Virus record (IMG/VR): IMGVR_UViG_3300033571_012802
Location: 1 to 57,304 of that record
DNA: 57,304 bases
Source: a virus
Strand: one strand, 5' to 3'
Shown in pieces: positions 3,087 through 57,304 of this stretch (position 1 is the stretch's first letter; every line of letters starts with the position of its first letter). The notes under the pieces are model-generated. The model searched no databases and was not told where the DNA came from. It was given only the letters and a program-made list of their open reading frames with translations. A program made the position numbers and the translations under genes.

Positions 3087-3380
3087 ATGTCAGACACAAC
3101 AACACAAGAAAACGTGGTGCCCTTCGTTGCGGCACCAGAAACCCCGAACGTAGCCCCTGTTGAAGCACCAACCGACGTGCCCCCACCAACCGAGGCCAAC
3201 ACGATCGATCTCAACACAATCACTCATGAGGACGTTATTCAGCGCCTTATCGACGTGAACAAGCGCCTCACCTACGAGCTGCTCATTAGCCTCAAGCTGC
3301 ACGAGCACATCAGCGTTCGTGATAACCCGGAGCTCGCCGCTCAGGCCGAAGCTAATGCAGCTGGCACGAGCGAGGAATAG
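3087..3380 (+). CDS. Hypothetical protein with Pro/Ala-rich N-terminus
   Basis: The protein has 97 residues. Residues 1-40 are disordered and rich in Pro, Ala, Thr and Val; residues 45-85 form an amphipathic helix ('VIQRLIDVNKRLTYELLISLKLHEH'), probably a coiled coil or oligomerisation helix. Small proteins of this layout are common in phage early regions. The function is unknown. A strong hairpin follows the gene. Confidence 0.55.
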   Translation: MSDTTTQENVVPFVAAPETPNVAPVEAPTDVPPPTEANTIDLNTITHEDVIQRLIDVNKRLTYELLISLKLHEHISVRDNPELAAQAEANAAGTSEE

Positions 3381-3400
3381 GTTCTTGCCAGTATTTGAGA

Positions 3401-3427
3401 CTCTCTCCCGCCGCAAGCGGGAGGGAG
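3401..3427 (+). terminator. Strong G/C hairpin after gene 3087-3380
   Basis: An 11-bp stem: CTCTCTCCCGC (3401-3411) pairs with GCGGGAGGGAG (3417-3427) around a CGCAA loop, with one G-T pair. No T-tract follows at once. A terminator or transcript-end protecting hairpin is likely. Confidence 0.6.
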
Positions 3428-3503
3428 TTCCTCAACCAGCGAATAAGATTTTAAAGTCTCCAGAGACCAACAAAACAAAACCAAAATTAATCTTCAACAA
3501 AAT

Positions 3504-4133
3504 ATGATAACAGGAATGACATTCGAGCCGTTGACAGAGATTTCCCGACTCCGGGAAAAAGTTCTTAACCTAGAGCGTTTACTCAAACAGCCCAAACTTA
3601 TCGGCCTCGTTGGATGTGCTGGCGCTGGGAAATCAACCGTCGCAAACATTATCGAGAGCGACTACGGGTTCTCAAAAGTCAGATTTGCGAACGGCATAAA
3701 ATCCATGCTTCGTGCATTGCTTTTCGAGACTGGACTCGATCACGGGCGGATCCACGAAATGCTCGACGGCTCTTTGAAGGAGACCGCGTGCGACGAGTTG
3801 TCTGGAAAAAGTCCAAGGTATTGCCTGCAGACACTTGGGACAGAATGGGGGAGAGAGTTTATCTCTCAGAACTTCTGGGTAGATCTAACGATGCATGCGG
3901 TGGATAACCTGCTAGCCGTATCCGAGTCAGTCGTAATCGACGACGTGAGATTTCCTAATGAAGTCAAGGCCGTTAAGGATTCTGGCGGAAGAATATTCCG
4001 AGTGATGCGAGATCACGATCCAATACCTGAAGCCGGGCACAAAAGCGAAGGACAAATACTTGAATTCGACGCGTGCATTCTTAACAATGGATCAATCGCA
4101 GATCTTGAAGGTCAGATTGCGAGATTACTATGA
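3504..4133 (+). CDS. Deoxynucleoside monophosphate kinase
   Basis: A P-loop kinase of 209 residues. The Walker A motif GCAGAGKST lies at about residues 37-45. A later 'VVIDDVRFPNEV' has the Asp-Asp-x-Arg-Phe-x-Asn-Glu signature typical of phage dNMP kinases (T4 gene 1-like fold). The enzyme would phosphorylate dNMPs to feed phage DNA synthesis, matching the nearby dCMP deaminase and DNA polymerase. An ATG at 3519 would remove the first five residues. The preceding 120 bases contain a hairpin and A-rich DNA. Confidence 0.85.
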   Translation: MITGMTFEPLTEISRLREKVLNLERLLKQPKLIGLVGCAGAGKSTVANIIESDYGFSKVRFANGIKSMLRALLFETGLDHGRIHEMLDGSLKETACDELSGKSPRYCLQTLGTEWGREFISQNFWVDLTMHAVDNLLAVSESVVIDDVRFPNEVKAVKDSGGRIFRVMRDHDPIPEAGHKSEGQILEFDACILNNGSIADLEGQIARLL

Positions 4134-12511: not shown

Positions 12512-12559
12512 TTCATTACCAGACAGCAACAACAACACACAACCAACACACACACGACC

Positions 12560-12763
12560 ATGACCAACAACACACAATCGATCGTCATCACGATCAACAC
12601 CACGAACCACGCGTTCCAGCCATCCCTAGACTCGGAGGTTTCAAGAATCCTCCGGGATTTAGCGGATCGCATCGACGACGGGCACACTCCCTCGTTCCTG
12701 TACGACGCCAACGGCAACGTAGCTGGTAACGTCGCCTGCTTCAACCAACCATCCAACATCTAA
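12560..12763 (+). CDS. Small hypothetical protein (67 aa)
   Basis: A 67-residue protein with a 'SEVSRILRDLADRIDDGHTPSFLYDANGNVAG' core (seen as two adjoining stretches). It resembles a common phage family whose members end in 'L.D.NGN.VG'. The function is unknown. The leader is an A/C-rich stretch ending ACACACGACC directly before ATG, with no Shine-Dalgarno sequence. Confidence 0.65.
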   Translation: MTNNTQSIVITINTTNHAFQPSLDSEVSRILRDLADRIDDGHTPSFLYDANGNVAGNVACFNQPSNI

Positions 12764-17273: not shown

Positions 17274-17828
17274 ATGCCTGTCTTAGAAAATCTCACACAC
17301 GAACGATTCTGTTCTCTCATCGCCGAGACTGGCGATACGGCTGCGGTTGCGTATGGGAAAGTAAACCCGACGGCCAAGGCTCCGAAGGTTTACGCAAGCA
17401 ACCTGATGAAGCGTACGGATATCATCTCGCGAATCGCGGAGATACGTACCGAGGTGGCTACCCGTAGCGTCGCCGTCATTGGCCGCAAGCGAGAGCTGCT
17501 ACGTCTCATGATCGAGGGAGCGGTTCCTACCAAGGTCGTCAACCGGGCGAACGGAGTGGAGGAGACCTACGACAAGCTCGCTGCCATGGCGCTGGACGCG
17601 AAACTTGCTGGAGAGCTTTCCGACAACATTAACCTTACGGCCAATAGCGAGTTGAAGTTGAACTTTACGGTTCGTGACCGGGACAGCAAAACCCTAGACG
17701 GATCAGGCGTCATGGACGCCGTACTCATTCCCGACGCAAACGAAGAGCCGCTAGCGCTTCCTGAGCCTGAGCCCGACGTTCAGTTCGCACACCTTGTAGA
17801 TGACGAACCCACAGACACCAGCGCGTAA
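17274..17828 (+). CDS. terS: Terminase small subunit
   Basis: A 184-residue protein with an N-terminal helix-turn-helix region ('FCSLIAETGDTAAVAYGKVNP' seen across residues 12-32, where alternate helices recognise DNA), a central helical part and an acidic C-terminus. The position directly before the large subunit, with a 29-base overlap, and the typical size support the call. It would bind the phage packaging site and recruit TerL. Confidence 0.75.
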   Translation: MPVLENLTHERFCSLIAETGDTAAVAYGKVNPTAKAPKVYASNLMKRTDIISRIAEIRTEVATRSVAVIGRKRELLRLMIEGAVPTKVVNRANGVEETYDKLAAMALDAKLAGELSDNINLTANSELKLNFTVRDRDSKTLDGSGVMDAVLIPDANEEPLALPEPEPDVQFAHLVDDEPTDTSA

Positions 17829-19680
17829 CGTAAGCCACGCCCTCAAGCTCGCGGAAGAGATTCGCAAGCAAGTCGATAGGGACGAGGAGAGGGGGATCCT
17901 CTACGGCGCTAGCCACATCCTTCGTCACGCTACGGCTAACGCCAACAACGTCGTACTCGACATCCCAAAGGCCAAGGCCGTTGTACTACAATTTGTGCAA
18001 CATCTGCTCGACAAGAATCAATTCGAGGCCGCAGCCACAATCCTATGGGGGTCGGAGGTGTACGACTGGAGGCCAGAGTCGGCGCGAGACACGTGGAGAT
18101 GTCTCTTCAAGTACGACAAGCTACTCATTCAGGGAGCGGGAGCCATGGGCAAGTCGTTCAACGGAGCTGCGTGGTTCTACCTCGATTGGCTGAGAGATCC
18201 TTTCTATACCTGTATCAAGGTCATCAGTCTTACACGCGAGCACGCGGAGCGAAATATCTACGCGCACATCAAAAATTTCCACCGATCGGCGCTAGTCAAG
18301 CCAGAGTTCCCGAAGGGCGAGGCGCTAGTCACATCGATTCAAGCCAACGAAGATTCAAAGCAGGGCATTCACCTAGTCGCTATTCCTCGCGGAGATAGCG
18401 GAGCTGGAACGCTACGCGGTTTCCACCCAGCACCGCGTTTCGGAAAAGCTCACCCAAGGTACGGACGCCTGTCTAGGATTCGCGTCGTTTTGGATGAGGC
18501 GGAGGAGATACCGGGAGGAGTATGGGAGGGCGTCAACAACATCGCGTCATCCATGGACGACGACCACTTTGCGGGACACATCAAGATTCTAGGAGCTTCT
18601 AACCCAAAAGATCGCACCAGCGACTTCGGAGCACGCTGCGAGCCCAAGAGCGGATGGGGGAGTGTCGATTGCGAGGAAGATTTCGAGTGGACAAGTCGCG
18701 ATGGCTTCAGGGTACTTCGCGTCGATGCATCAAAGTGCGAGAACGTCATAGAAAAAAAGATCGTGTATGCGGGCTTGCAGACGTACGACGGCTTCATGAA
18801 CTACGCGAATCGTGGTCACACGGCTGAGTACTTCACGATGGCACGTGGGTGGTTCCCGGAGGAGGGCATAGCCATGGCGGTAATGACCCCGTCAATGCTC
18901 GACAATGCCCTAGGAATGGTGCGATTCATCGGCCCGGTAGTTCCATTAGCCGCGTTCGATCTAGCGCTTGAGGGCAACGACAGCGTCGTCTGCAGCTATG
19001 GTAGGTTTGGTCTCTCAGACGGCTATACGCCGCAGTCAGGTCAGTTCATCCCGTACGAGAGCCCCAAGACCGTCCTTCAACTAGACTCACAGATCACGTT
19101 CCCCAAACGCGCCACACTCGAACAGACGACCGCAATCATCAAGTTCTGCCAAGACATGAAGATCAGTCCCAACTGGCTATGTGTCGATCGCACTGGCAAC
19201 GGGTCTGGAATTCACGACGGGCTATGCACACTCTTCGGGGAGGAGGTGATGGGGGTGAACTACTCGTGGGCGGCTACCGACTCGCGTATCCTTGGAGATG
19301 ACTCTCAGCAGGCGAACGAGCTTTACAGCGGAGTCGTTACCGAGCTGCTCTTCGGTCTCGCAAAGTACATCGAGTTTGGATACCTAAAAATTTCTCCCGG
19401 CTTCCGAACGGAAGATCTCATTCGTCAGGCTACGGGGAGGAGGTACAAGCAGAAGGGCAAAGGACTCGTGCGCGTGGAAGCAAAAGCAGAGTACGTCAAG
19501 AGAACCCGGAGCAAGTCACCGGATGCCTTAGACTCACTATCGTTGCTTGTCTATCTCATGCGGCAGCGCTCAGGCGTCGCAGCCGAGATGGTGACCGACA
19601 AGCCCAAGGAGAAGCGTGTGAGGGAGCGACGACTCGAAAGTTTGGTGGATGCAATGTCTTATGTTGACATGTCTGAATGA
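17800..19680 (+). CDS. terL: Terminase large subunit (packaging ATPase/nuclease)
   Basis: The 626-residue protein has Walker A GAGAMGKS (112-119), Walker B 'RVVLDEAEEI' with D232-E233, and an RNase H-like nuclease with likely metal ligands D387 ('AAFDLALEGND'), D463 ('CVDRTGNG') and D575/D578 ('SPDALDSL'). It translocates DNA into the prohead and cuts the concatemer. Its start overlaps the small subunit gene. The length is slightly above the T7/P22 range. It is followed by the tRNA cluster. Confidence 0.92.
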   Translation: MTNPQTPARNVSHALKLAEEIRKQVDRDEERGILYGASHILRHATANANNVVLDIPKAKAVVLQFVQHLLDKNQFEAAATILWGSEVYDWRPESARDTWRCLFKYDKLLIQGAGAMGKSFNGAAWFYLDWLRDPFYTCIKVISLTREHAERNIYAHIKNFHRSALVKPEFPKGEALVTSIQANEDSKQGIHLVAIPRGDSGAGTLRGFHPAPRFGKAHPRYGRLSRIRVVLDEAEEIPGGVWEGVNNIASSMDDDHFAGHIKILGASNPKDRTSDFGARCEPKSGWGSVDCEEDFEWTSRDGFRVLRVDASKCENVIEKKIVYAGLQTYDGFMNYANRGHTAEYFTMARGWFPEEGIAMAVMTPSMLDNALGMVRFIGPVVPLAAFDLALEGNDSVVCSYGRFGLSDGYTPQSGQFIPYESPKTVLQLDSQITFPKRATLEQTTAIIKFCQDMKISPNWLCVDRTGNGSGIHDGLCTLFGEEVMGVNYSWAATDSRILGDDSQQANELYSGVVTELLFGLAKYIEFGYLKISPGFRTEDLIRQATGRRYKQKGKGLVRVEAKAEYVKRTRSKSPDALDSLSLLVYLMRQRSGVAAEMVTDKPKEKRVRERRLESLVDAMSYVDMSE

Positions 19681-19755: not shown

Positions 19756-19829
19756 CACAGGTTCGTCTAACGGTAGGATGTCGCCTTCATACGGCGAAGA
19801 TGAGAGTTCAATTCTCCCACCTGTCACCA
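19756..19829 (+). tRNA. tRNA-Met (CAT), with encoded CCA
   Basis: It folds as a 74-nt cloverleaf: D-stem GTCT with two wobble pairs, A14 and GG18-19, anticodon stem TCGCC/GGCGA, loop TTCATAC, T-loop TTCAATT, discriminator A and CCA. The first acceptor pair is a C-C mismatch. The initiator GGG/CCC anticodon-stem pairs are absent. CAT can read AUG, or AUA if C34 is modified to lysidine. Confidence 0.85.
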
Positions 19830-19840
19830 ACTAAAATTTA

Positions 19841-19916
19841 TACGGAGTAGCTCAATTGGTAGAGCAGCAGAATTTGGATCTGCTGGTTCTAGGTTCGAGT
19901 CCTAGCTCCGTAGCCA
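19841..19916 (+). tRNA. tRNA-Gln (TTG), with encoded CCA
   Basis: A 76-nt cloverleaf with all stems perfect: acceptor TACGGAG/CTCCGTA, D-stem GCTC/GAGC, anticodon stem GCAGA/TCTGC with loop ATTTGGA, T-stem CTAGG/CCTAG, discriminator G, CCA. It reads CAA codons and may support the Gln-rich internal virion proteins (49742-52946). Confidence 0.93.
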
Positions 19917-19964: not shown

Positions 19965-20111
19965 ATGAAACAAGGACTATATTCCAACATCAACGCAAAG
20001 AAGAAACGCATCAAAGCCGGGAGCGGAGAACGCATGAGGAAGGCTGGATCTTCCGGGGCACCTACCGCAAAGGCATTCAAGCAGTCCGCCAAGACCGCGA
20101 AGAAGCGATAA
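19965..20111 (+). CDS. Small basic conserved phage protein (48 aa)
   Basis: 'MKQGLYSNINAKKKRIKAGS' then 'GERMRKAGSSGAPTAKAF' and a Lys-rich tail. This belongs to a widespread phage family with 'GLYxNIxAKRxRIKxGSGE' and 'GAPTAxAF' blocks, often found near structural genes. Its function is unknown. It ends at TAATG shared with the next gene. Confidence 0.8.
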   Translation: MKQGLYSNINAKKKRIKAGSGERMRKAGSSGAPTAKAFKQSAKTAKKR

Positions 20112-20353
20112 TGGAAAAGCGATTCACCAAGGTCGTAAAGAACGAGCAGACTGGCAGGACTAAGACGATTAAGTTTGGTCAAGCTGGCAAGGCTGCGGAC
20201 GGCAAGGATCGCATCAGGCCCTCCACGAAGAAGGCAGATAATTATTGTGCCCGATCTAACGCAATCAAGGGAGATTGGCGAGATGATAAAAACTCACCGA
20301 ATAACTTAAGTCGTCGCAAATGGAAGTGCATAGGAAACCGATCTAAGAGGTAA
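20111..20353 (+). CDS. Small basic protein whose C-terminus is duplicated downstream
   Basis: An 80-residue basic protein of the phage type with 'TIKFGQAGKAADGKDRIRPS', Cys-Arg and a C-terminal 'RKWKCIGNRSKR'. Related phage proteins usually end with a similar Trp-containing tail. The last 13 residues recur almost exactly as the end of the HNH gene at 21063. This suggests the HNH gene inserted here by duplicating the tail. Confidence 0.7.
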   Translation: MEKRFTKVVKNEQTGRTKTIKFGQAGKAADGKDRIRPSTKKADNYCARSNAIKGDWRDDKNSPNNLSRRKWKCIGNRSKR

Positions 20354-20400
20354 AAAAAAATGGCGTTGTAATGGATATAAATCTATGAGATGATTTACTC

Positions 20401-21063
20401 ATGGTTGATCATCAAAATCCCAACATCGTAGAAGGCCCAATAAAAGAAGGTGGAAGAACATACTACATTTGCAAGTGTCCATCTTGCGGGGATCTTAGAA
20501 AAGTCCGTAATGATTCCTTGGATAAAGTAAAAAGTTGCCATCCATGCCACCACAGAATAATCAGACCATTAAAACCAGATGGAGATTTTGAATGGTGCAA
20601 CAAATGCAAAAAATGGAAAGTAATAGGCGAATTTTGTGTTCGTTCTGACGGAAAAACTAGATCGTGTAAAGAGTGTGAAAACAATTATAGGCTGAACAAT
20701 CTTGAAAGAATTAATGAATACTCTAAAAAATACAGAGTAGACAATATTGAAAAGTCTATATTTTATGCGGCAACAGCAAGGGCTAAAGAGAACAATATTG
20801 ATTTTAATATTGAAACTAGCGATATAATCATTCCAGATAAATGCCCAGTTCTTGGTATTCAAATATCAACCTCTGGAGAAAAAAATAGTAGTCCTTCTCT
20901 TGATAGAATTATTCCAGAGTTAGGATACATTAAAGGAAATATAAGAGTGATTTCTTGGAGAGCCAACTGGATTAAAAACAACATGACACCCGAAGAAGTA
21001 GAAAAACTCTACAATGATTCTCGCAAGTGGAAGTGCATCGGCGGAAGAAGCAAGCGCGGATAG
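20401..21063 (+). CDS. HNH-family homing-type endonuclease with zinc-finger N-terminus
   Basis: The protein has 220 residues and is AT-rich compared with neighbours. The N-terminal half has CxxC pairs ('KCPSCG', 'SCHPCHH', 'CNKCKKW', 'SCKECENNY'), so probably two zinc ribbons. The C-terminal half has 'KCPVLGI', 'SLDRIIPELGYIKGNIRVIS' and 'ANWIKNNMTPEEVEKL', the signature of a phage HNH-like nuclease family. The tail 'RKWKCIGGRSKR' copies the preceding gene's end. A weak TTGTAA-type promoter lies 35 bases before the ATG. It is a likely mobile gene. Confidence 0.75.
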   Translation: MVDHQNPNIVEGPIKEGGRTYYICKCPSCGDLRKVRNDSLDKVKSCHPCHHRIIRPLKPDGDFEWCNKCKKWKVIGEFCVRSDGKTRSCKECENNYRLNNLERINEYSKKYRVDNIEKSIFYAATARAKENNIDFNIETSDIIIPDKCPVLGIQISTSGEKNSSPSLDRIIPELGYIKGNIRVISWRANWIKNNMTPEEVEKLYNDSRKWKCIGGRSKRG

Positions 21064-22068
21064 ATTAGATTGTGGTCTAATCTTTAGAGGATAAAATTAG
21101 ACTGCGGTCTACGATTGCTGATCTTTTTGCCGATCCAATCGGTAGTTGCCAACTTATCAGCTAGGCTTACAAGTTGCCGATTGACATCGCAATCTGCGAT
21201 ATCGAACAGAAGCTAAAGTTGCTTTTGTGAGACATTATTGCCGATAATGTAATCTATAGGCTACATAAACACAATATATGTAGCGCGAACACTACACGCG
21301 ACGAGTGTAGTATGCTTGCCGAGTTTATCATTAATGATAATTTGAGCAGTTATAACAAGTTTAGGGAGTTTATGTTGCGTGAAGCGGACATTGTTTACCT
21401 GAGAGGCTGGAACTGAAACGTAACTTCATTTATACACGCTGAGATAATCACCCATAAATAGATGTTACTATTCAAAAGTAATAAAAGGTGTTGATTACCA
21501 ACGAGTTATTTTTCAGGCATCTATTCATTTAATAGGAATCTATTCTTTTTATAAGGACACCTTTGTTAAAACCTGTCCCTTTAAAAAGTACACCCTATCG
21601 GGAGCATTATTTTTAGCTCACAGAGATGGTAGTCTTTTGCTATACGCCTAACGCATACTTTTGATCTATATGTCAACTACGTGATGAGTTCTCGACGGCT
21701 GGAAAGCGTTTTCGAGTGAAATCACTCATTATCCTGAGTTAACGGGGGTGATTTGATTGAAAAAGAAACAGGATCCGACTTAGAGGAATCAAAGCGTAAC
21801 GAAAGTCGAGTTAATCGATCGAGGCGGTCGCCAATAATTAACAGATCAGTTAAACTTCCCTATTTGATTAGATTCGGGTCGTGAAATCCCCTTATAGGGT
21901 CATTTCGACGCGCCAATCTAAACATTTTCTAGTGAATTTGTGATTGCATACCCCCAACCCGGTTGAGTATCTTATCCCCTCACCAAACCGTCGCCAGCAA
22001 TGGTCGCGGATTGGGGTTTGGGAAAACCACTCTCCTGCTTCCTATGAGGCAGGGGAGTTTTTCTTTTT
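21064..22068 (+). ncRNA. Candidate ~1-kb structured non-coding RNA (GOLLD/ROOL-like?)
   Basis: No gene is seen in this 1-kb interval. Perfect or near-perfect hairpins occur throughout: 21062-21083 (8 bp), 21186-21200 (6), 21232-21250 (7), 21260-21284 (8), 21291-21311 (7), 21325-21340 (6), 21868-21921 (three-tier), 21988-22009 (GCAA tetraloop). Long-range pairs include 21445-21450/21492-21497 and 21484-21491/21557-21564 (alternatives). A strong intrinsic terminator ends it. GOLLD and ROOL RNAs are large phage RNAs, and GOLLD is often near tRNAs, as here. The 5' end and class are not established. Confidence 0.6.
22029..22068 (+). terminator. Strong intrinsic terminator of the candidate large RNA
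   Basis: ACTCTCCTGC (22029-22038) pairs with GCAGGGGAGT (22049-22058) with one G-T; TT/AG extend the stem to 12 bp. TTTTTCTTTTT follows. This is the best terminator in the window and defines the RNA 3' end. Confidence 0.9.
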
Positions 22069-22073
22069 AAGGG

Positions 22074-22110
22074 ATAAATGCTTGCATCGTATTACAATGT
22101 TGAGTAATTT
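22074..22110 (+). promoter_or_regulatory. Candidate promoter of the portal/late operon, shared motif
   Basis: TTGCAT (22082-22087), 17-base spacer, TAATTT (22105-22110). It begins with ATAAATGCTTGCAT, matching the motif at 15415. The expected start is about 22117, so the mRNA would begin almost at the ATG (22119). It follows directly on the RNA terminator. Confidence 0.5.
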
Positions 22111-22118
22111 CCACGCAG

Positions 22119-22700
22119 ATGGCAAAACCCATTAACGGAATGATCCCACCCAACGGGTGGCATTACTATCAAAGTGATGTCAAACTAGAAGGAGCGTCGC
22201 TCGATGATTTGTATAAAGTCGTCGAGAATTTTCGTGCCGACAACTCGTACCCAGCTGGAGACGTGAAGGGCGATGTGGATGGATACATCTGCGGAAACTA
22301 TCCATCGTTCTGCCATGGAGTGGACGACGTAACGATCAACGTCTTGAGTAGACAAGCCGCCACCCGGTCTGGTGAGCTTCTGCAGGATGTCTCTGCATGG
22401 GCCAACAATGCGCTTCGATCCAAGGATCCAATCAAACTCGTTCAAGACGACGAGGCCGAGCGACGTGCTAAGATTTGCAAAGCGTGTCCGCACAACGCTA
22501 GCTGGAGATCGGGATGCATTTCATGTATCGTCACCGCTGACCGCATCAGTGCTTCAGTGCGTCAGGCGAGAGATACGGAGACTTCCAAGAAGCTGGGTGG
22601 TTGTCACTTACTCAGGCATGACAACAGGTCAGCTGTATTCTTTGAGAAAGAAAACCTTGCAACAACTGGCGATTTGCCTACTAATTGCTGGCTAAAGTAA
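22119..22700 (+). CDS. Conserved Cys-rich phage protein before the portal
   Basis: A 193-residue protein with an N-terminal 'GWHYYQSDVKLEGASLDDLY' and a C-terminal cluster 'CKACPHN' then 'SGCISCI', and later 'GGCHLL' and 'NCWLK', probably a Zn-binding domain. It recurs upstream of portal genes in podovirus-like genomes, but no function is known. Within the gene, the DNA near 22547-22565 contains TCAGTGCTTCAGTGCGTCAG, similar to repeats in the 16-kb intergenic region. It has its own promoter-like motif and no Shine-Dalgarno. Confidence 0.65.
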   Translation: MAKPINGMIPPNGWHYYQSDVKLEGASLDDLYKVVENFRADNSYPAGDVKGDVDGYICGNYPSFCHGVDDVTINVLSRQAATRSGELLQDVSAWANNALRSKDPIKLVQDDEAERRAKICKACPHNASWRSGCISCIVTADRISASVRQARDTETSKKLGGCHLLRHDNRSAVFFEKENLATTGDLPTNCWLK

Positions 22701-34883: not shown

Positions 34884-35221
34884 CGCTTATTTTCACCCCA
34901 TCATCGCTTACGAAGTTCGGCAAGAACGGAGCCTATAGCTACTCCCAAGACATACCTCTAACGGGCGATCTCGCTAGCGTCTCAACAACCCTCCTGACTT
35001 GGCTCAACGAGCAATTAGTATCTGGCGAGACCGTCTCGCAAATCGTGCTGGAATCAGGCGGATCAGTAACGATGGAGGATGAGACAACTCGCAACACGCT
35101 AAACGCCGCAGTCTCGGTCACCGCTACCGAGGGCGAGCGCACATTCTCACTCTCCTCAGAATCCCTCCCCGCCGATCTGAGGGACAGCCTCCTCGCAACT
35201 TGGGCAAGCCTAGACGCATAA
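34880..35221 (+). CDS. Hypothetical virion-region protein (113 aa)
   Basis: A beta-rich N-terminus ('FTPSSLTKFGKNGAYSYSQD') and a helical C-terminus ending 'DSLLATWASLDA'. It overlaps both neighbours, so it is probably translated with the fibre gene. It may be a fibre chaperone; that is only inference from location. Confidence 0.5.
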   Translation: MTLIFTPSSLTKFGKNGAYSYSQDIPLTGDLASVSTTLLTWLNEQLVSGETVSQIVLESGGSVTMEDETTRNTLNAAVSVTATEGERTFSLSSESLPADLRDSLLATWASLDA

Positions 35222-35445
35222 TGAAACTCCTCCACGACCTTTGGTTTCTAATTAAAGTATACCCACTAGCAAAGGCTAGTGTCTTATCGCATTCAGATAG
35301 CCAGTATATCGGCCCTGTCCGAATGCAAATAGCTTACAATGAGATTCGTACAGCTATCGTTAAGTCTGGCATTCGTGCAGAGAAAGACATTACTGGAGCC
35401 GTTATTTATCTTGCAATATCACTAGCTTATTTGTTAAACAATTAA
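35221..35445 (+). CDS. Small hypothetical protein (74 aa)
   Basis: ATG 35221 overlaps the previous stop. 'LWFLIKVYPLAKAS' and a C-terminal hydrophobic 'GAVIYLAISLAYLL' suggest a membrane-associated small protein. No family is recognised. Confidence 0.5.
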   Translation: MKLLHDLWFLIKVYPLAKASVLSHSDSQYIGPVRMQIAYNEIRTAIVKSGIRAEKDITGAVIYLAISLAYLLNN

Positions 35446-35460
35446 CCAACCAAAATTATT

Positions 35461-35835
35461 ATGTCTCAATTCCCTGAAATCGCATCCAATCTTTCGACCG
35501 CAAATTACCGGGCAAGCGTCCTTACCTTATTGCAGAGCGTGGCAGGAGGCGGAGGCGGATCTTCTGTATCAGTAAGTAATTTCCCTGCACTTCAGAATGT
35601 CTCTGACCATAACTCAGGGGCTAACGGAGGCAAGATTGTCCCTGCAACTACCGCTTCTGGATCTGGCACTTTTTACGCACTTCAGTTCGTAACTAGCGGA
35701 ACGCTTACTGCCTACGCTGGAAACATTACTGGAACTGTCACTGGCGTTACTTTCCCTGCTGGTTTCGTCCTTTACGGAAATACTACCAGCTTCACAACTG
35801 GCGCAGGAACTTCTGTAGTTGCCTACACATTCTAG
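35461..35835 (+). CDS. Small beta-rich appendage protein with Gly hinge
   Basis: A 124-residue protein: helix 'ASNLSTANYRASVLTLLQSV', a Gly5 hinge, then Gly/Ser/Thr-rich beta sequence ending 'GTSVVAYTF'. The layout parallels the gene at 32880. It probably caps or decorates the virion. No specific function is known. Confidence 0.55.
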   Translation: MSQFPEIASNLSTANYRASVLTLLQSVAGGGGGSSVSVSNFPALQNVSDHNSGANGGKIVPATTASGSGTFYALQFVTSGTLTAYAGNITGTVTGVTFPAGFVLYGNTTSFTTGAGTSVVAYTF

Positions 35836-35838
35836 GTC

Positions 35839-36690
35839 ATGCCGAGCCTGTCACTAAAGGCTAGTATAAATTGCCCGATTATTGGTGGATCTTCTGGATC
35901 TCCTTATGACCCAGACGCATTTGCATGGTTTAACGCAGTAGAGGCTACTGGCGCAAATTTTGGATCTTCACCAGCGTCCATTACCTCCAATAAAGAAGCG
36001 TTTAATACAGCATTCCTATCGCTAAAATCTGCTGGAGTTTGGAATTCCATACAACAGGCTTGTTTCCTAGTTGGGCCTTCCACGCTAGAAGGAGCTTTAG
36101 TGAATATCAAACTGACAGGAAATCCAGTAAACTACAATTTCACATCTGCATTTTATGATAAACTGACAGGATTGAGTGGAAGGCTTCCAAATTCTATTAG
36201 CAACACAACTAGATATTTAGATACTCTATTAAATGATTCAACCGATATAAATGGGTTAGATTTCCATATGTGCGTTCAAGCAACTAACAGCTTTACTATT
36301 CCTCTAAGTGCAACAGAAGCTATTTTTGGATCTAATAATGATGGAGCGCAAACGGGGGGCGACATTTTTATTGGCGAATCGGAAGGTGGTTACATTCTCA
36401 GTCCAAATTCATACGAATCATACGGATTTCAATCGAATGACTTATGTTTTTCTAGGCTTGATGGTGATGTTACATTTCCAAGGGCCGCTTTTGGGTGGGG
36501 CACTTATCCGATAGATTATGCTGATTATTTTTCAGGCAATAACTTTCTTTTGTTCAAAACGATTGGTAATATTAGCGCAAATAATCTATTGTATGATGGA
36601 AAAATCTCATTTTATAGCATTGGAACTAGCACAAATGTAGAAGCTATGGCTGGAATTATAAACCAACTTAAAAATTCACTTGTGAGTTAA
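35839..36690 (+). CDS. Putative virion/appendage protein (283 aa)
   Basis: It begins 'PSLSLKASINCPIIGGSSGS' and has 'DAFAWFNAVEATGANFGSSP' followed by a helical segment and a beta-sandwich-like C-terminal half rich in Gly/Ser/Phe/Tyr. This 'WFNAVxAxGxxF' segment is found in other phage fibre-region proteins. It lies between fibre-like genes and the lysis cassette. A receptor-binding or decoration role is inferred. Confidence 0.55.
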   Translation: MPSLSLKASINCPIIGGSSGSPYDPDAFAWFNAVEATGANFGSSPASITSNKEAFNTAFLSLKSAGVWNSIQQACFLVGPSTLEGALVNIKLTGNPVNYNFTSAFYDKLTGLSGRLPNSISNTTRYLDTLLNDSTDINGLDFHMCVQATNSFTIPLSATEAIFGSNNDGAQTGGDIFIGESEGGYILSPNSYESYGFQSNDLCFSRLDGDVTFPRAAFGWGTYPIDYADYFSGNNFLLFKTIGNISANNLLYDGKISFYSIGTSTNVEAMAGIINQLKNSLVS

Positions 36691-36691
36691 T

Positions 36692-36871
36692 ATGAGCGAT
36701 AACATTTCACAATCTGACGTAGGCCCAACAAGCGCAATCGTTTCGTTAGTTTCGCTTATTATTAGTTTCTTTGACGCAACCCATGTTTGGCTTCAGAACC
36801 TAACCTTGCTTGTGTCGCTATGTGCTGGTTTGATAGCAATCTACGCTGGTGTCAGGAAACTATTAAAATGA
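36692..36871 (+). CDS. Small two-TM protein, holin candidate
   Basis: A 59-residue protein with hydrophobic segments at about residues 13-27 ('AIVSLVSLIISFF') and 38-55 ('LTLLVSLCAGLIAIYAGV'), and a basic C-terminus (RKLLK). Its size and layout fit class II-type holins. It overlaps the spanin gene by 4 bases at the front of the lysis cassette. Confidence 0.55.
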   Translation: MSDNISQSDVGPTSAIVSLVSLIISFFDATHVWLQNLTLLVSLCAGLIAIYAGVRKLLK

Positions 36872-37233
36872 ACAAACTTCTTATTGTATTAGCGTCCATA
36901 CTTATTATTGGATGCGCCCATCAAGAGAAGCGTATTTATACTGCGCCTTCAGTAGTGGCCGTTAAAACGAGCGTGGAGAAAGTGCGTCAGTATGTGCGTC
37001 CAGAGGGTCACGCCGCAGTCAAGGAGCTTTCTGATGCCATTACGACCTACGAGACTCAGGTTCAAGATCAGTCATTGGCGTTGGCAAAGGCTCAGAATGA
37101 TGCAGTCTATTGGCAGAACAAGCACTCTGACGCTTTGAAGAGACTGTGGTTCTGGAGGGGAATCGCCCTTGTTTCAGTAGTCTGCGTTGTGGGATACATT
37201 GGGATTAAAACTTCATGGAAATTCCTCGTCTAA
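36868..37233 (+). CDS. Unimolecular spanin (u-spanin) candidate
   Basis: A 121-residue protein with a lipoprotein signal peptide, 'LLIVLASILIIGC', lipobox Cys at residue 16. A helical periplasmic coiled-coil region covers residues 35-90 and a C-terminal transmembrane helix ('GIALVSVVCVVGYIGI') covers about 97-113. An outer-membrane lipid anchor plus an inner-membrane helix in one chain is the defining u-spanin architecture (as T1 gp11), which fuses inner and outer membranes at lysis. It implies a diderm host. Confidence 0.7.
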   Translation: MNKLLIVLASILIIGCAHQEKRIYTAPSVVAVKTSVEKVRQYVRPEGHAAVKELSDAITTYETQVQDQSLALAKAQNDAVYWQNKHSDALKRLWFWRGIALVSVVCVVGYIGIKTSWKFLV

Positions 37234-37550
37234 ACAAAGTAGTATCGCAAAGGCTTATCGTTTCCCTTGTAGGGATTGGGTTGATTCAAGCCTCGTGGAG
37301 ATGGGCAATTGCTCATCTCTACACACTTCCAGATGTCGCTTTGGCCGGGTTTGTCACTATTACGACGAACTCAATGTACGTCACGGGTGCAATCGTTGTT
37401 TTTATGGTGACCGGGAGAATGGTTTACGATTGGAAAATGGGTACAAGTCAAGTACAAGAAGTTGTTTCCACCATAACCAAAGTTAAGCAAGATATCTCTG
37501 AAAAAATCACTCACAACGCCAAGGAGAATGATTATGAAACCTCCATCTAA
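37215..37550 (+). CDS. Two-TM membrane protein, second holin candidate
   Basis: The 111-residue protein has hydrophobic segments at about 11-25 ('RLIVSLVGIGLIQA') and 43-68 ('VTGAIVVFMVTGRM' region), then an amphipathic C-terminal coiled coil ('QVQEVVSTITKVKQDISEKI'). It overlaps the spanin gene by 19 bases and the endolysin start by 17. It is either holin, antiholin or regulator; its order next to endolysin favours holin. Confidence 0.55.
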   Translation: MEIPRLNKVVSQRLIVSLVGIGLIQASWRWAIAHLYTLPDVALAGFVTITTNSMYVTGAIVVFMVTGRMVYDWKMGTSQVQEVVSTITKVKQDISEKITHNAKENDYETSI

Positions 37551-51227: not shown

Positions 51228-52946
51228 ATGGCTTTCGACACCTCTGGCTTTAACTTGAATCTAGGGCAGGAGCAGGCAATTGTGCCTTCTCTTGCTGGCC
51301 TAACTCCATACGCTCCCAACTTTCAGGGGCTAGCGTGGAAGCCTGCAGATATTAAGGTTCCTGAGTTGCCAGAAAAAGGAATTGGAGACGTTCTTCGAGA
51401 GATTGGATCTGGAATTTCCGTCGCCTACAAAGGCATGAAGGACGACAAGAAAGAAGCTGCTAGAAATGCCCTAGATCGTGCGAAGTTGGCGGCTACCGAG
51501 AGTAGGGATGCTGCTCGCGAAGCGAGGGCCGAACAAACTCATGCTGATTCCATGGCGATGCAGAGTGCAAACTTGGCCGTGTCTCAGGGTCAGTTAAGCC
51601 TAGCGCAACAAAGACAAGCCGATAAAATGGGTGGATCCGCTGATTACAGCGAGTATATTGAAAATACTGAAGTCGGGGACAGAATTAGAGATGTCACACC
51701 CAAAGCATTCCAAGAACAAGAAACTCCTCAGTACTTCCCCGGATCAAAACTTGAACTTGGTGCTCCAACTCCTCAAGTCGATGAACCGGGGGTCTCATTT
51801 GATGGCGGGAATAATCTTGGAGCTCTATCTGCTCCAGTAGTGATGCCTCCGCAGGAGGATCAACGATATGCCGCGTTGCGAGAGATGGGCGGAAGTGTTT
51901 CTCCTTTTAGCGTAGCTAGCACCGAGGGGGCTGGAGCGCCCGCACCAATACCAAGTCTTCCATACTCGTTGCAAGGCGGAGCGCCAAAGCCACTAGCTGA
52001 TGTACAGATTCCTAGCACGAGAGAGCTATACGCTGGGTCTGAATTCTCTCCAACGCCGATTCCAACTTACGGAAGCGCCGTACAAGAACCTTCTGCAGCT
52101 AGTGGCGCTGCGCCACAACCTTCAAGGTCTCCAATCGTAGCGTTTCCAATATCTGATCCCAAGGGGGGAGTTCTCGGCTACGCGTACTACGACAAGGTAT
52201 CTAGGAAGTTGATACCGGGTTCCTACGTCGCGGAGTCAAAACCTTCGACCGCACCCCTTGCTGATGCTGATATTCCACAAGGATTCCGACCTAAGTCGAT
52301 GTCTGTAAATGCAAAGGGAGAAAAAAGTTATACCTACGAGCCGAAAACAGCCGAGCTAAGTGAGGGACAAGCACGACTACTAAACTCATTGCGGGATGAC
52401 TACAAGTCAGACCCCTTCATCAAAGCAGCCCAAGATGCTGTTGGGTCTCAAGGAATCATTGAACAATCCCTCTCGGAACAGAATGGTTTTGGAGATATCA
52501 TGGCAATCAACGCCATGCAAAGGATGATTGATCCGGGAGTAGCCGTTCGTGAAGGTGACGTAAGACTGATCCAAGATGCAATCCCACGCCTAGAGCGCAT
52601 GGGCCTGAAAGCTAAGAATTGGTTCATCGGCGATCAGCTGACACCTGAAGTTCGTACTCAGATGATGACCTTGGCATCCAAGACTGCGGACAAGCGTTCC
52701 GCTCTAGCCAATGAAAGATCAATTCCAAAGTTCAAGCAATCAGCGGAGAAGATTGGGCTTGATTTCAATTTGGTAGGCGAAGATTTCCCTGTAAAATCAA
52801 AGAAATTCCAAAAAGACTACATAGCAAGACAAACGGAACTTGACTCGCTAATCAAAGAAATCGATTCTTCTAAGGATCAGAATTCCGCTGACATTCTTGC
52901 TAAGAAAAAGAAAGCGGAACAACTTTACCTCCTTCAAAAGAAATAA
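51228..52946 (+). CDS. Internal virion protein (572 aa)
   Basis: An N-terminal 'FDTSGFNLNLGQEQAIVPSL' segment, a coiled coil (residues 75-130, 'ALDRAKLAATESRDAAREAR'), a long Pro/Ser/Ala-rich disordered middle, and a helical C-terminal third with 'QSLSEQNGFGDIMAINAMQR' and a Lys-rich end. It would be an ejected core protein by position and layout. No enzymatic motif is recognised. Confidence 0.6.
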   Translation: MAFDTSGFNLNLGQEQAIVPSLAGLTPYAPNFQGLAWKPADIKVPELPEKGIGDVLREIGSGISVAYKGMKDDKKEAARNALDRAKLAATESRDAAREARAEQTHADSMAMQSANLAVSQGQLSLAQQRQADKMGGSADYSEYIENTEVGDRIRDVTPKAFQEQETPQYFPGSKLELGAPTPQVDEPGVSFDGGNNLGALSAPVVMPPQEDQRYAALREMGGSVSPFSVASTEGAGAPAPIPSLPYSLQGGAPKPLADVQIPSTRELYAGSEFSPTPIPTYGSAVQEPSAASGAAPQPSRSPIVAFPISDPKGGVLGYAYYDKVSRKLIPGSYVAESKPSTAPLADADIPQGFRPKSMSVNAKGEKSYTYEPKTAELSEGQARLLNSLRDDYKSDPFIKAAQDAVGSQGIIEQSLSEQNGFGDIMAINAMQRMIDPGVAVREGDVRLIQDAIPRLERMGLKAKNWFIGDQLTPEVRTQMMTLASKTADKRSALANERSIPKFKQSAEKIGLDFNLVGEDFPVKSKKFQKDYIARQTELDSLIKEIDSSKDQNSADILAKKKKAEQLYLLQKK

Positions 52947-52952
52947 TCAGTC

Positions 52953-55900
52953 ATGGGATTCCTCAACGAACTTGAAGACAAGCACTCTCAAGAGACTCCC
53001 AAGAAAGAAGATCCTGCAAAACCTGCATCATCTATCGGATTTCTAGGTGAGTTAGAGAGCAAGCATTCTGGAGAAGTAGCATCTGCTCCCTCATCCTTTC
53101 TCGGCGAGCTGGAACAAAAGAACGACACAGACCCAACATCTCTTCGAGAGAGAAAGTCGAGGGGCGAACCTCTTTCCACAGAACAGGAGCGAGTTGTATT
53201 TGATGCAGACCGAGCACGTAGTGCCGGGGAACAGGCTTCTGCAATAGGCAAGGGAGTCTTTACTAGCCTCAGTGAGATGGTTCCTCAAGCCTTTGAGGGA
53301 ACAAAGAAAATCATTGGCGCTAGCAAAGACTTGACCAAACAAATTGGAATCAAGTACCTAGATCTCAATCCAATTGTTCCTGAGATTGCAGTCAACTACA
53401 TTGCTGGCAATACCGCAGAAGAGCGAAAAGCAGAGCTAGAAAAAGCGGCCAAGAAAGAAGCTGACGTCGTTAGGTCGGCTGCGTCTGGCGCGGTTCAGGC
53501 TGGCGAAGAAGTAATTAACGAAGCTGCACGCGGAGCGTTCTTTGGCACGCCGCTTACAGATCTCATTCAGGAGTACCCCGCTGGCAAGTTTGCATTTGAA
53601 GCCATGAAGGCTGGTGGCCCGGTAGCACTAGCCAGTGAAGCACTTAGTGGAAAGATTTTTGGAGAGCCACTAGTTGACGTGCAGCCGATCACGAAGGACG
53701 AATCGTTCCAGAGGTCGTTGAATCGTGAAAGCATGCGTCAGCAGGAGCAGCAGGAGTACAAAGATTTACCCGAAAGAACTACCGCAGCATTGGTAAAGCT
53801 GGCTGAAAGTTCCGCTGGATCTCTGCTTGGAAAATCCTTGGGAGTTCCTTCCGACGAGCAGTTCCAGAAAGACCTTGTTCAGGAGTTAAAAAATAACGCG
53901 ATCGTTCCCGACAAAGATATCGCCATGATCGGCAATATGTTGAGCCCGCTGGATCCTACCTTTGTCTTGGCTGGGCCGTTGGCAAGGGCATCCTCAAAGG
54001 CATTCGACCTAGCGTCGCAAGCTGGCCTCCGAGCTCTTACTAAGCCAACTATTGCTGGAGTGAACCCTCTTGAGGGATTAGGAAAAGTGATACGATTCGG
54101 CGGAGAGGGAACACAAAAGGCAGCTAGAAAGTTAAGCGATTTCCTTACTGGATCTGAAGATAGCTTTATTGGAAAGCTAGCGGATCCAGTTGTGGCAGTC
54201 ACTCGACGCCCCGGAATGATAGTTGAGGGGGCTGGAAGGGCTCTTAGGGACATAGGACGTCAAATTGACGACGTTGGAATCCGCTCTCGCACAGGAATAA
54301 TTGAGAGGGCTGGACAGGACGTACGTTCTGGGGATTTCATGCGTACTGTCTTTGGCCCCGGCACCGAGAAGGCTCAAGCCAAAGCACTCAAAGCAGCCGA
54401 AAAACTTGCTGGGGAAGGTGAAGAGATGGGCGCGGCTGCACCAGCATCCATCTCAAAGCGTCGTGCAGCCGCTAGGACTGCGGACTGGGTATTCCGACAA
54501 GCCGAAGCCGTAGCACGTTATGGGACAAGCGGAGCGGCCATTGGAACCGCTCTCGGCCTGCCAGATATTGAGAACGCGGAGATGCTAGGACAGGTGGCAA
54601 CTACTGGAGCCATGGTCGGAACTATCGGGGCTGCTAGACTCGGAGAGAAAGGCGCTAAACTAGTCGATCCTAGGGTTTCGCTGAAAGGAAAGATCGACGC
54701 TATTTTAGCCGACGATCCTGTCTCAAGGCGAGCTGACGAAGACGCCGACATAGAGCGTTTCAGAAATACTGCTTCACCAGACATCATTAATAAGGCCGAC
54801 GAATTCGGAAACATTAATTCCGTTCTGCAATCTTTTGACGGCCATATCCAGAATCTAGTCGATCAACGCAACCAAGCAATTGCTCGTGGAGAGAACGACG
54901 TCGCAGCCGGGATGGATCTTGAAATTAAGAAGACCTCAGATAGCAAAGATGCAGTCTCAAAGATGACTCCAGACGCCATGAAGGAGTACCAACGCCGGGT
55001 TGACCTAACGCTCGCTGACGCGTTAGACCAAGCCAAAACTACTGGCGAGGCGGTGGGTCTCAACAACATTGAGATCAAGCTGCTCTCTCCAGTTGAGATG
55101 CTGGGACACCTTCGCGACAAGTGGGGCACAACCCTAACGAACGCCGAATACGTTTTGCAGTCGTTAGCTGGGAACAACGACCTGAGCGACGCGGATCAGC
55201 AGAAACTCAATCAGGCGACGGAGACCATCAACCAGTTCAACTCCATGTATCAAACCGCGATGGGACAGCGGGGATACGCCATGTCTGACAACACATATTC
55301 GGATAGCCCCATGCATTTGCGTCCAGCAAATCTAAAGACGCCTTCGGTTGTGATTAATTCTGAACTAGTCAAGAGTCAGCTCGGAAACAATCTGTACGCA
55401 ACCTTGACGCACGAGGTCAATCACGCACTGAGGAATTTCAAAGAAGTCAAATCCATGATGGCTCCGCTAGAGGAGTACTTGTTTGGCCGAAAGGTTCAGA
55501 ACGCTGATGGAAGCATCACCGAAATATCGAAAGGAATTTACGACGACGCTGCGATCGATCGCATGGGCGATTACTACGCGGAGCTCTTGGGCGGAGACAA
55601 GTGGAAGGCTGGGTTTGCTACCGAGGGACAGTTCAGGAATTACATCAAGGAAGAGATTCTTTCGGAAGCCGCTGGCTTGTCATCTAATACGGCTAACCTT
55701 CGCGCTGACTTGGATTCACCGGGTCAAGCCTTCGTCGATTGGGCTGCTACCTCGAACAAGAATACTTTGATCGGAAAGCTGCGTGATGCACTTGGTCTCA
55801 AGGGTGTCTTGTTAGACGACACGGGAAGGATCTCGGACATTCTGGGGGAAACAATCTCACCAGAAGTTCTAGCGCTTACTCGTCAGTTCCAGCGCCAGCT

Positions 55901-57304
55901 CAGAGACTACAACGGATCATTGTCGCAAGTCACTTCCGCTACCGGGCCAGAAGTTACGATCTCGGCTCCTGAGCTGCTATCGAGCAAAATTCTTCAGAAC
56001 AAATATCGTGGCCTAGACATCTGGCAAAAGGAGCAGGTGCTTACGATCAAGGACGACGAAGGAAACGTAGTCAACGAAATCGTGGTTCCTAAGTCCGCGT
56101 CTCTCGATCCGCTTGTAGGACAATATCGCCTCGAAGATGGCATGCTTGTGGATGAGAACGGCAACAAGATGCAGATCGCTCCTGAGATCGCTGCAGCTAA
56201 CCTTCCGAACAACACCAACATCTCCGTTGATCAAAGAATTGCTAGAAACCCGGACGGGTCTCCCAAGATCCTATCGAATCAAGAGATTCAGGCACGCGCT
56301 AGGAAGCGCGGAGAGGTGCTGAAAAATGCTATCGAGGGCGCTACGGAGGATGGATCGACAAACCGAGTTCGTCCTGTTGGAGATAACGAGTACGCTGGCA
56401 TCCTGAGCCCGACTCAGCTACAGGCGATCTTGGCGCTTCCTAATGACATCGTGGCTCCTGAGTTGAAGCGCAAGATTGCAGCCTTCAACGAGACAGCTCT
56501 ACGTAAGGACGGCACACGAATGATCGTCGAGTACCAAGCAGCGATGAAGGGCGGAAAGTACAAGGCGCTTGCACCCAAGATCCGTGACGTCGTGCCTTTC
56601 GGATTCCGCATCACGAAAGATGGTAACTTCCTAGCGACTACAATTTCTGTCAGCAGAATTTTCGACAAGATCAACGATTGGGCAAAGCCCAATAGAAACA
56701 GGCTGAACCTTTGGAACGGCGACACCAACGCGTTGTGGGAAGACATCCTGCACGTCCTTAAAAATCACCAGAAGGGCGAGCGCGGAGAAGTTGGATTGGA
56801 CGTTGATCCAGCCATGGCGATGCTCAAGAAGAATCGAATCAACGACATCTTCAATCTCTTCGACAAGGCTACTGAGTCGAAGAATCCCGATCGTTCCGTA
56901 AGCAAGACCCGGAAAGGTCAGGACTCCATCGACCGCGTGATCATGGGAATGAGGATGGATCGTGTGAACGACTTCCAGATTTCAAACGCTCAGAAGCTCC
57001 CCGTAGACTACGGCAAGATCAAAGAGAACTACATGCCGAACGTGCCTGTAGACGTCGTCCAGAATAATGTTGCCGAGGAAGGCGGCTTAGGTTATAAAGA
57101 ATCTCCAACCATTAAATATCGTGAACCAAAATACGAAACCACCAACCCCCCAAGACTGGGATACATCGATCCGCGAACTACAGAGGAAGGTCGAAGAGTC
57201 CTCAGCGAGAGTCCGATCCTCGCGCAAGCATACGACGCCCTTGAAAGAGCGTCTGAGGCTGGCGGAGATCAGCGCCCAACTTCAGGGTCTTCGGTAATAC
57301 CAGC
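52953..57304 (+). CDS. Giant internal virion protein with HExxH motif (3' truncated)
   Basis: The frame opens at ATG 52953 and stays open to the window end (1450 codons). Three N-terminal copies of 'FL[NG]ELExK[HN]' lie at residues 3-11, 30-38 and 49-57. Helical, Ala/Lys-rich segments follow, then 'TLTHEVNHALRNF' with HEVNH at 820-824, a zinc-peptidase motif. Later parts are mixed and may include further enzymatic domains beyond the edge. It likely enters the cell with the DNA, like the large ejection proteins of T7- or N4-type phages. Confidence 0.75.
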   Translation, partial: MGFLNELEDKHSQETPKKEDPAKPASSIGFLGELESKHSGEVASAPSSFLGELEQKNDTDPTSLRERKSRGEPLSTEQERVVFDADRARSAGEQASAIGKGVFTSLSEMVPQAFEGTKKIIGASKDLTKQIGIKYLDLNPIVPEIAVNYIAGNTAEERKAELEKAAKKEADVVRSAASGAVQAGEEVINEAARGAFFGTPLTDLIQEYPAGKFAFEAMKAGGPVALASEALSGKIFGEPLVDVQPITKDESFQRSLNRESMRQQEQQEYKDLPERTTAALVKLAESSAGSLLGKSLGVPSDEQFQKDLVQELKNNAIVPDKDIAMIGNMLSPLDPTFVLAGPLARASSKAFDLASQAGLRALTKPTIAGVNPLEGLGKVIRFGGEGTQKAARKLSDFLTGSEDSFIGKLADPVVAVTRRPGMIVEGAGRALRDIGRQIDDVGIRSRTGIIERAGQDVRSGDFMRTVFGPGTEKAQAKALKAAEKLAGEGEEMGAAAPASISKRRAAARTADWVFRQAEAVARYGTSGAAIGTALGLPDIENAEMLGQVATTGAMVGTIGAARLGEKGAKLVDPRVSLKGKIDAILADDPVSRRADEDADIERFRNTASPDIINKADEFGNINSVLQSFDGHIQNLVDQRNQAIARGENDVAAGMDLEIKKTSDSKDAVSKMTPDAMKEYQRRVDLTLADALDQAKTTGEAVGLNNIEIKLLSPVEMLGHLRDKWGTTLTNAEYVLQSLAGNNDLSDADQQKLNQATETINQFNSMYQTAMGQRGYAMSDNTYSDSPMHLRPANLKTPSVVINSELVKSQLGNNLYATLTHEVNHALRNFKEVKSMMAPLEEYLFGRKVQNADGSITEISKGIYDDAAIDRMGDYYAELLGGDKWKAGFATEGQFRNYIKEEILSEAAGLSSNTANLRADLDSPGQAFVDWAATSNKNTLIGKLRDALGLKGVLLDDTGRISDILGETISPEVLALTRQFQRQLRDYNGSLSQVTSATGPEVTISAPELLSSKILQNKYRGLDIWQKEQVLTIKDDEGNVVNEIVVPKSASLDPLVGQYRLEDGMLVDENGNKMQIAPEIAAANLPNNTNISVDQRIARNPDGSPKILSNQEIQARARKRGEVLKNAIEGATEDGSTNRVRPVGDNEYAGILSPTQLQAILALPNDIVAPELKRKIAAFNETALRKDGTRMIVEYQAAMKGGKYKALAPKIRDVVPFGFRITKDGNFLATTISVSRIFDKINDWAKPNRNRLNLWNGDTNALWEDILHVLKNHQKGERGEVGLDVDPAMAMLKKNRINDIFNLFDKATESKNPDRSVSKTRKGQDSIDRVIMGMRMDRVNDFQISNAQKLPVDYGKIKENYMPNVPVDVVQNNVAEEGGLGYKESPTIKYREPKYETTNPPRLGYIDPRTTEEGRRVLSESPILAQAYDALERASEAGGDQRPTSGSSVIP

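Follow-up and report, generated by a model that had tools for sequence, protein, structure and literature searches.

The phage-encoded noncoding RNAs GOLLD and ROOL, whose Rfam entries we take to be RF02032 and RF03087, respectively, are often located near tRNA genes. GOLLD is a single long RNA that often exceeds 800 nt and whose 3' domain is universally conserved. Much shorter is the oop RNA of phage lambda, a small RNA that has a promoter and an intrinsic terminator of its own and is antisense to a phage gene. In terminator-type riboswitches and attenuators, a structured domain is followed by an intrinsic terminator and is placed upstream of an ORF.

The DNA analysed here is an uncultivated virus record of 57,304 bases, referred to as the window in its whole length. 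A first-pass annotation had read about 1 kb of it (21064-22068) as a large phage RNA belonging to GOLLD or ROOL, or to a new class. Searching Rfam with the whole window at the gathering threshold gave no match for this stretch, and a search of 21000-22150 with expectation values up to 10 returned no GOLLD, ROOL or group I/II intron match and nothing credible, so that membership in GOLLD or ROOL was not upheld. Group I and group II introns were ruled out, since no Rfam intron model matched and the adjacent HNH gene does not lie within an intron-like fold. The stretch had no DNA match among GenBank phages, and no described element was recognised in titles and abstracts of the literature as the same as the island or the RNA described below. 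Our main reading, with a probability of about 0.72, is that the stretch is an island of accessory noncoding modules built by recombination, whose functional unit would be a promoter-hairpin-terminator small RNA, named E, predicted to act in trans.

The gene-free stretch and its folding

As listed in Table 1, the stretch follows the terminase gene, two tRNAs and an HNH gene. Its right-hand neighbour is an ORF starting at 22119, followed by a long ORF at 22705, which has no Pfam or PHROG match and whose position suggests the portal gene. The two tRNAs reported upstream are present, 1.15-1.3 kb away. The stretch had also been described as devoid of genes, and 21064-21943 indeed contains zero ORFs of at least 60 aa; hidden coding was ruled out, as a long ORF is absent and aligned relatives differ by block indels, not by frame-preserving change. 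The C-terminus of the HNH ORF (SRKWKCIGGRSKRG) is a copy of that of the preceding ORF 20111-20353 (RRKWKCIGNRSKR). The region 20111-21063 is one uninterrupted gene in relatives L002 and L006, and in L005 a different ORF is inserted ahead of the same gene. Elsewhere, the last 4.3 kb or so of the record (52946-57304) have no ORF exceeding 124 aa, and the longer ORFs there are mostly on the minus strand.

The minimum free energy (MFE) of the whole stretch is below that of dinucleotide shuffles (z -5.5 on the + strand and -4.65 on the - strand, from 20 shuffles only), which agrees with the dense folding first reported for it. The excess is uneven, and the description therefore suits the ends better than the middle: among 250-nt segments, 21014-21263 (z -4.2) and 22014-22263 at the terminator end (z -4.3) stand out, whereas those across 21264-22013 are ordinary (z -0.6, -0.1 and -0.6). 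The inner 831 nt taken alone reach z -3.1, and the same block in two relatives z -2.4 and -3.1. Two 250-nt segments elsewhere in the phage, in or near coding sequence, 12514-12763 (z -6.1) and 3264-3513 (z -4.7), are lower than any such segment of the stretch. The count of eight perfect hairpins was overstated, seven having a stem of at least 6; this is still above shuffles (mean 2.2, maximum 6), and four have a stem of at least 7, against 0.7 in shuffles. Comparison gave no support to the long-range complementary segments as they pair in the MFE fold, and no long-range covariation across the stretch was found in the upstream-block alignments.

Table 1. Coordinates of features at the locus and in related contigs (window positions unless a contig is named)
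Feature	Position	Strand	Remarks
Terminase large subunit	17800-19680		followed by tRNA-Met and tRNA-Gln
tRNA-Met	19756-19829		
tRNA-Gln	19841-19916		
HNH/endonuclease VII-like ORF	20401-21063	+	adjoins the gene-free stretch; not part of the RNA
Long imperfect hairpin	21066-21111	.	unmatched in relatives except a TTAGACTGC-GTCTAA remnant in L006
Module A2	21148-21262	+	in most relatives, immediately follows a tRNA on its 3' side
Module B	21285-21349	+	two hairpins on inverted TGTAGTG/CACTACA half-sites, fixed 4- and 9-nt spacers
Half-site recurrences	L186:450-480; L193:1580; window 21279-21312; L017:1777-1810; L023:9278-9311		sometimes overlap promoter-like pairs
Module C5	21393-21455	+	block present or absent among relatives
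Module C core (TTACTATTCAAAAGTAATA...)	21465-21506	.	belongs to a dispersed repeat family with tandem copies in L176 and L034
Module X	21662-21782	+	conserved block, hairpin GAGTGAAATCACTC; weak structural support
Module D	21864-21924	.	61-bp near-palindrome; no covariation; every copy matches its own reverse complement
E promoter	21944-21973	+	TTGCAT-18 nt-TATCTT; upstream regions of 17 members
Small-RNA gene E (predicted)	21980-22068	+	about 85 nt; predicted +1 about 21980-21982; predicted RNA end near 22066
E three-tier hairpin	21983-22014	+	CCAA/UUGG, A.A, CCGU/GCGG, C.C, GCCA-GCAA-UGGU; GNRA loop
E terminator hairpin and U tract	22029-22068	+	intrinsic terminator
Module F	L126:2237-2357; L002:5591-5709; L178:2469-2586; L066:1577-1694(-); L029:8516-8636; L086:2606-2724		
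Module G (examples)	L026:8483-8582; L012:8345-8440; L021:8944-9048; L002:5785-5868; L126:2464-2531		

The predicted small RNA E

The interval 21944-22068 forms a self-contained unit consisting of a promoter, a three-tier hairpin and an intrinsic terminator, with a short linker joining hairpin to terminator. Both the three-tier stem-loop with its GCAA loop and the textbook terminator had been noticed in the first-pass annotation and were confirmed. The terminator stem is kept in 17 of 17 members of the family and is followed by a U-rich tract. A P1 helix (UCCC/GGGA) suggested by single folds was dropped, as it lies partly upstream of the predicted +1 and its pairing is inconsistent. In most relatives, the promoter reads TTGATN-18-TATCTT or TTGACA-18-TATCTT/TATTTT. 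The -35/-10 pair has a constant position in 15 of the 17 members and ends about 7 nt before the hairpin, a distance that places the predicted +1 at the hairpin foot; 12 of these 15 combine 18-nt spacing with at least 8/12 matches to a sigma-70-like consensus. The window's own copy is a poor match (7/12, with 18-nt spacing) and was not listed by a generic promoter scan.

A covariance model, R1, was built on 12 members and found 17 distinct versions of E. Five of them were outside the training set, with rough expectation values from 1e-12 to 6e-9 (about 6e-9 for L005/L007-L009, and 1e-12 to 2e-9 for L186, L190, L191 and L193). Matches in L189/L192 (0.02-0.04), which have no more in common with the family than the terminator and a GNRA-capped hairpin, were not counted. 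Applied to 80 loci from a lax pattern search of bacterial genomes (about 118 chance matches), R1 found nothing significant.

In the alignment of 17 sequences, pairing is kept in 96.5% of pair cells, and seven pairs, comprising 19 cells, have changes on both sides. Shuffles gave means of 3.0 pairs and 4.5 cells and in 0 of 500 cases reached the observed 7 and 19, figures that are supportive, not exact, and overstate significance because the alignment was fitted to the model and the members are related. Slid controls yielded at most three double-change pairs, and paired cells fell to 37-61%. The versions outside the training set constitute a second subtype, CCA-A-GUAC-C-GC(GNRA)GC-C-GUAC-A-UGG, in which the helices are replaced and the architecture is the same, the A.A and C.C mismatch positions persisting in both subtypes. 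Support is modest when this subtype is left out (two pairs, 11 of 500 shuffles). Architecture, covariation, conservation of promoter and terminator, and independent occurrence at other loci are established at the level of sequence comparison. Taken as a structure, E is well supported as a new phage small-RNA family, with a predicted transcript, and the proposal that the stretch encodes a structured RNA outside Rfam was in this sense borne out.

E has a patchy distribution, with a single copy per genome and presence in 7 of 40 records. In L164-L166, its site is remote from the terminase, on the downstream side of homologues of the window genes 35200-37550, and the close relatives L003-L005 carry the second subtype and almost nothing else of the island. 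An ORF starts about 30-250 nt downstream in the members examined. This gene is of the 22119 type in the window and L194, of a type beginning MKQGLY in L037/L029, different again in L164-L166, and ParB-like in about ten of the 17 members. A conserved regulated gene downstream of E was not found, and the presence of at least four different genes in this position argues against a gene-specific leader role. Antisense action within the phage was rejected, as no perfect complement of E of at least 11 nt occurs elsewhere in the window. E is best read as a putative small RNA that would act in trans and have a host RNA or protein, not the adjacent gene, as its target, with an attenuator role as the main alternative.

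Upstream modules and their probable exchange among relatives

Scanning IMG/VR with short patterns and with the proteins of the flanks yielded about 25 contigs that contain parts of the region. The stretch is almost entirely lacking in L003-L005, which share 87-89% DNA identity with the window in the flanks, and in L006. Relatives differ in how the modules are combined, ordered and oriented, and tRNAs or HNH genes intervene between modules; L173 and L169 have HNH ORFs within the array, and L029 has a tRNA there. Modules A2-B-C-X are colinear in L173, L168, L172, L169, L178 and L126, and whole blocks are gained or lost. Module D follows X in the window and stands between C and X in L037; elsewhere, it is situated immediately before the start codon (ATG) of a ParB-like gene (L126, L167, L168, L169, L172, L173 and L178). 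In L066, the modules are on the opposite strand, upstream of the terminase.

The upstream 0.85 kb consists of repeats, palindromes and weakly supported hairpins, and is at most a candidate RNA. Compensatory changes in homologues, proposed as a test of the large RNA, were found in the last 0.1 kb and were absent across most of this upstream part. Modules X and A2 each show two double changes alongside some broken pairs. The consensus folds of module B have conserved hairpins and no double changes, and nearly all departures are G.U pairs on the + strand (27 G.U against 2 A.C cells). This bias favours a + strand RNA, on few independent changes and with a structure that was itself chosen on the + strand. 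In L186/L193, the TGTAGTG half-sites coincide with the position of the E promoter, which fits a putative operator; module B is a candidate for either a protein-binding site or hairpins of a + strand RNA. Inverted half-sites (TGTAGTG/CACTACA) at constant offsets of 11 and 16 bp also recur in intergenic DNA of the phage group (Table 1). Tandem or near-tandem copies of the module C motif TACTATTCAAAAGTARTATAAGT are present at L176:6982-7026 and L034:4519-4610. Module D was rejected as an RNA, being palindromic in DNA and without covariation.

Two further structured RNA modules of the relatives are absent from the window and were not listed by Rfam at gathering score. Module F has double changes in 12 of 25 consensus pairs (7 sequences). 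Module G is a terminator-like RNA with double changes in 7 of 14 pairs (15 sequences), in which invariant internal strands (GAGGG ... TAGCGACCT) are enclosed by a covarying outer stem. The fetched loci contain it at 32 places, of which several belong to copies of one contig, and L034 and L168 have two copies each; it is widespread in the phage group. The covariation of F and G supports the view that this position is an RNA island in these phages.

Alternative readings and comparison with known systems

In the favoured explanation, an accessory noncoding island would lie between two late-gene blocks, namely the terminase with its tRNAs and the portal operon, and would have been assembled by recombination from short exchangeable modules. 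E (about 21980-22066) would be transcribed from its own sigma-70-like promoter, end at its intrinsic terminator and target a host RNA or protein in trans, while the upstream modules, probably part regulatory DNA and part RNA hairpins, would be exchanged with other phages.

That 21064-22068 is one structured RNA some 1 kb long, either GOLLD/ROOL-like or of a new class, appears very unlikely. The modules have no fixed order, orientation, content or neighbourhood, as illustrated by the shifting place of D and the inverted block of L066; HNH genes and internal promoters and terminators interrupt the array; no Rfam model matches; the middle folds in an ordinary way without long-range covariation; and strong covariation is limited to the roughly 85 nt of E. 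These observations outweigh the folding of the whole + strand, the somewhat better than shuffled folding of the inner 831 nt, the colinear A2-B-C-X order, which in several relatives starts right after a tRNA, and the G.U bias of module B, which could make the upstream part RNA too. The tRNA inside the array of L029 also recalls GOLLD, whose linkers sometimes contain a tRNA (PMC12286853).

It is likewise improbable, if less so, that E is a cis-acting attenuator or riboswitch-like leader in which the tiered hairpin would be the sensor and the terminator the switch controlling the next gene. The order promoter-hairpin-terminator-ORF, the short distance to the ORF and the frequent ParB-like neighbour would suit such a leader, yet the downstream gene differs among members, the terminator is maintained in all of them and an alternative antiterminator pairing was not found. 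A mainly DNA-level island of repeat-derived palindromes, operators and iteron-like repeats, with hairpins as a by-product, is possible, albeit less than probable. It would account for the near-perfect inverted repeat of module D in every relative, the recurrent spacing of the module B half-sites and their overlap with the E promoter position, the tandem module C motif and the scarcity of compensatory changes in most upstream blocks, but it leaves unexplained E and, likewise, the covarying F and G. Rather doubtful, finally, is a modular noncoding RNA locus whose covarying domains (E, F, G, B and X, with tRNAs) would be swapped as cassettes to give a chimeric long RNA or co-expressed small RNAs; such a locus, set between late operons of the phages, would parallel a gene cassette array at the level of RNA.

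On the main reading, that of an accessory island with E as its functional unit, the guess of a giant RNA gives way to a defined small-RNA family that comprises 17 distinct members in two subtypes, can be searched for with a model and comes with a precise prediction of its transcript. Between the late operons, the noncoding gap would be an exchange hotspot for RNA modules, tRNAs and homing endonuclease genes in this phage group, and may offer a route to learning what such RNAs do during infection.

Compared with described systems, the stretch resembles GOLLD in its location near phage tRNAs (here tRNA-Met and tRNA-Gln). It differs in having no single large conserved domain, its 3' part being an independent unit and its upstream modules variable; the covariation-supported unit is about 85 nt, versus over 600-800 nt in GOLLD and ROOL. 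Like terminator-type riboswitches and attenuators, E is a structured domain followed by an intrinsic terminator with an ORF downstream; unlike them, it has neither a conserved downstream gene nor an alternative pairing that could be found. From lambda oop, E differs in its lack of a perfect complement in the window and in its conserved mismatch-tiered hairpin; as with that phage small RNA, E would be a short autonomous unit between late or regulatory genes, made of a hairpin and a terminator.
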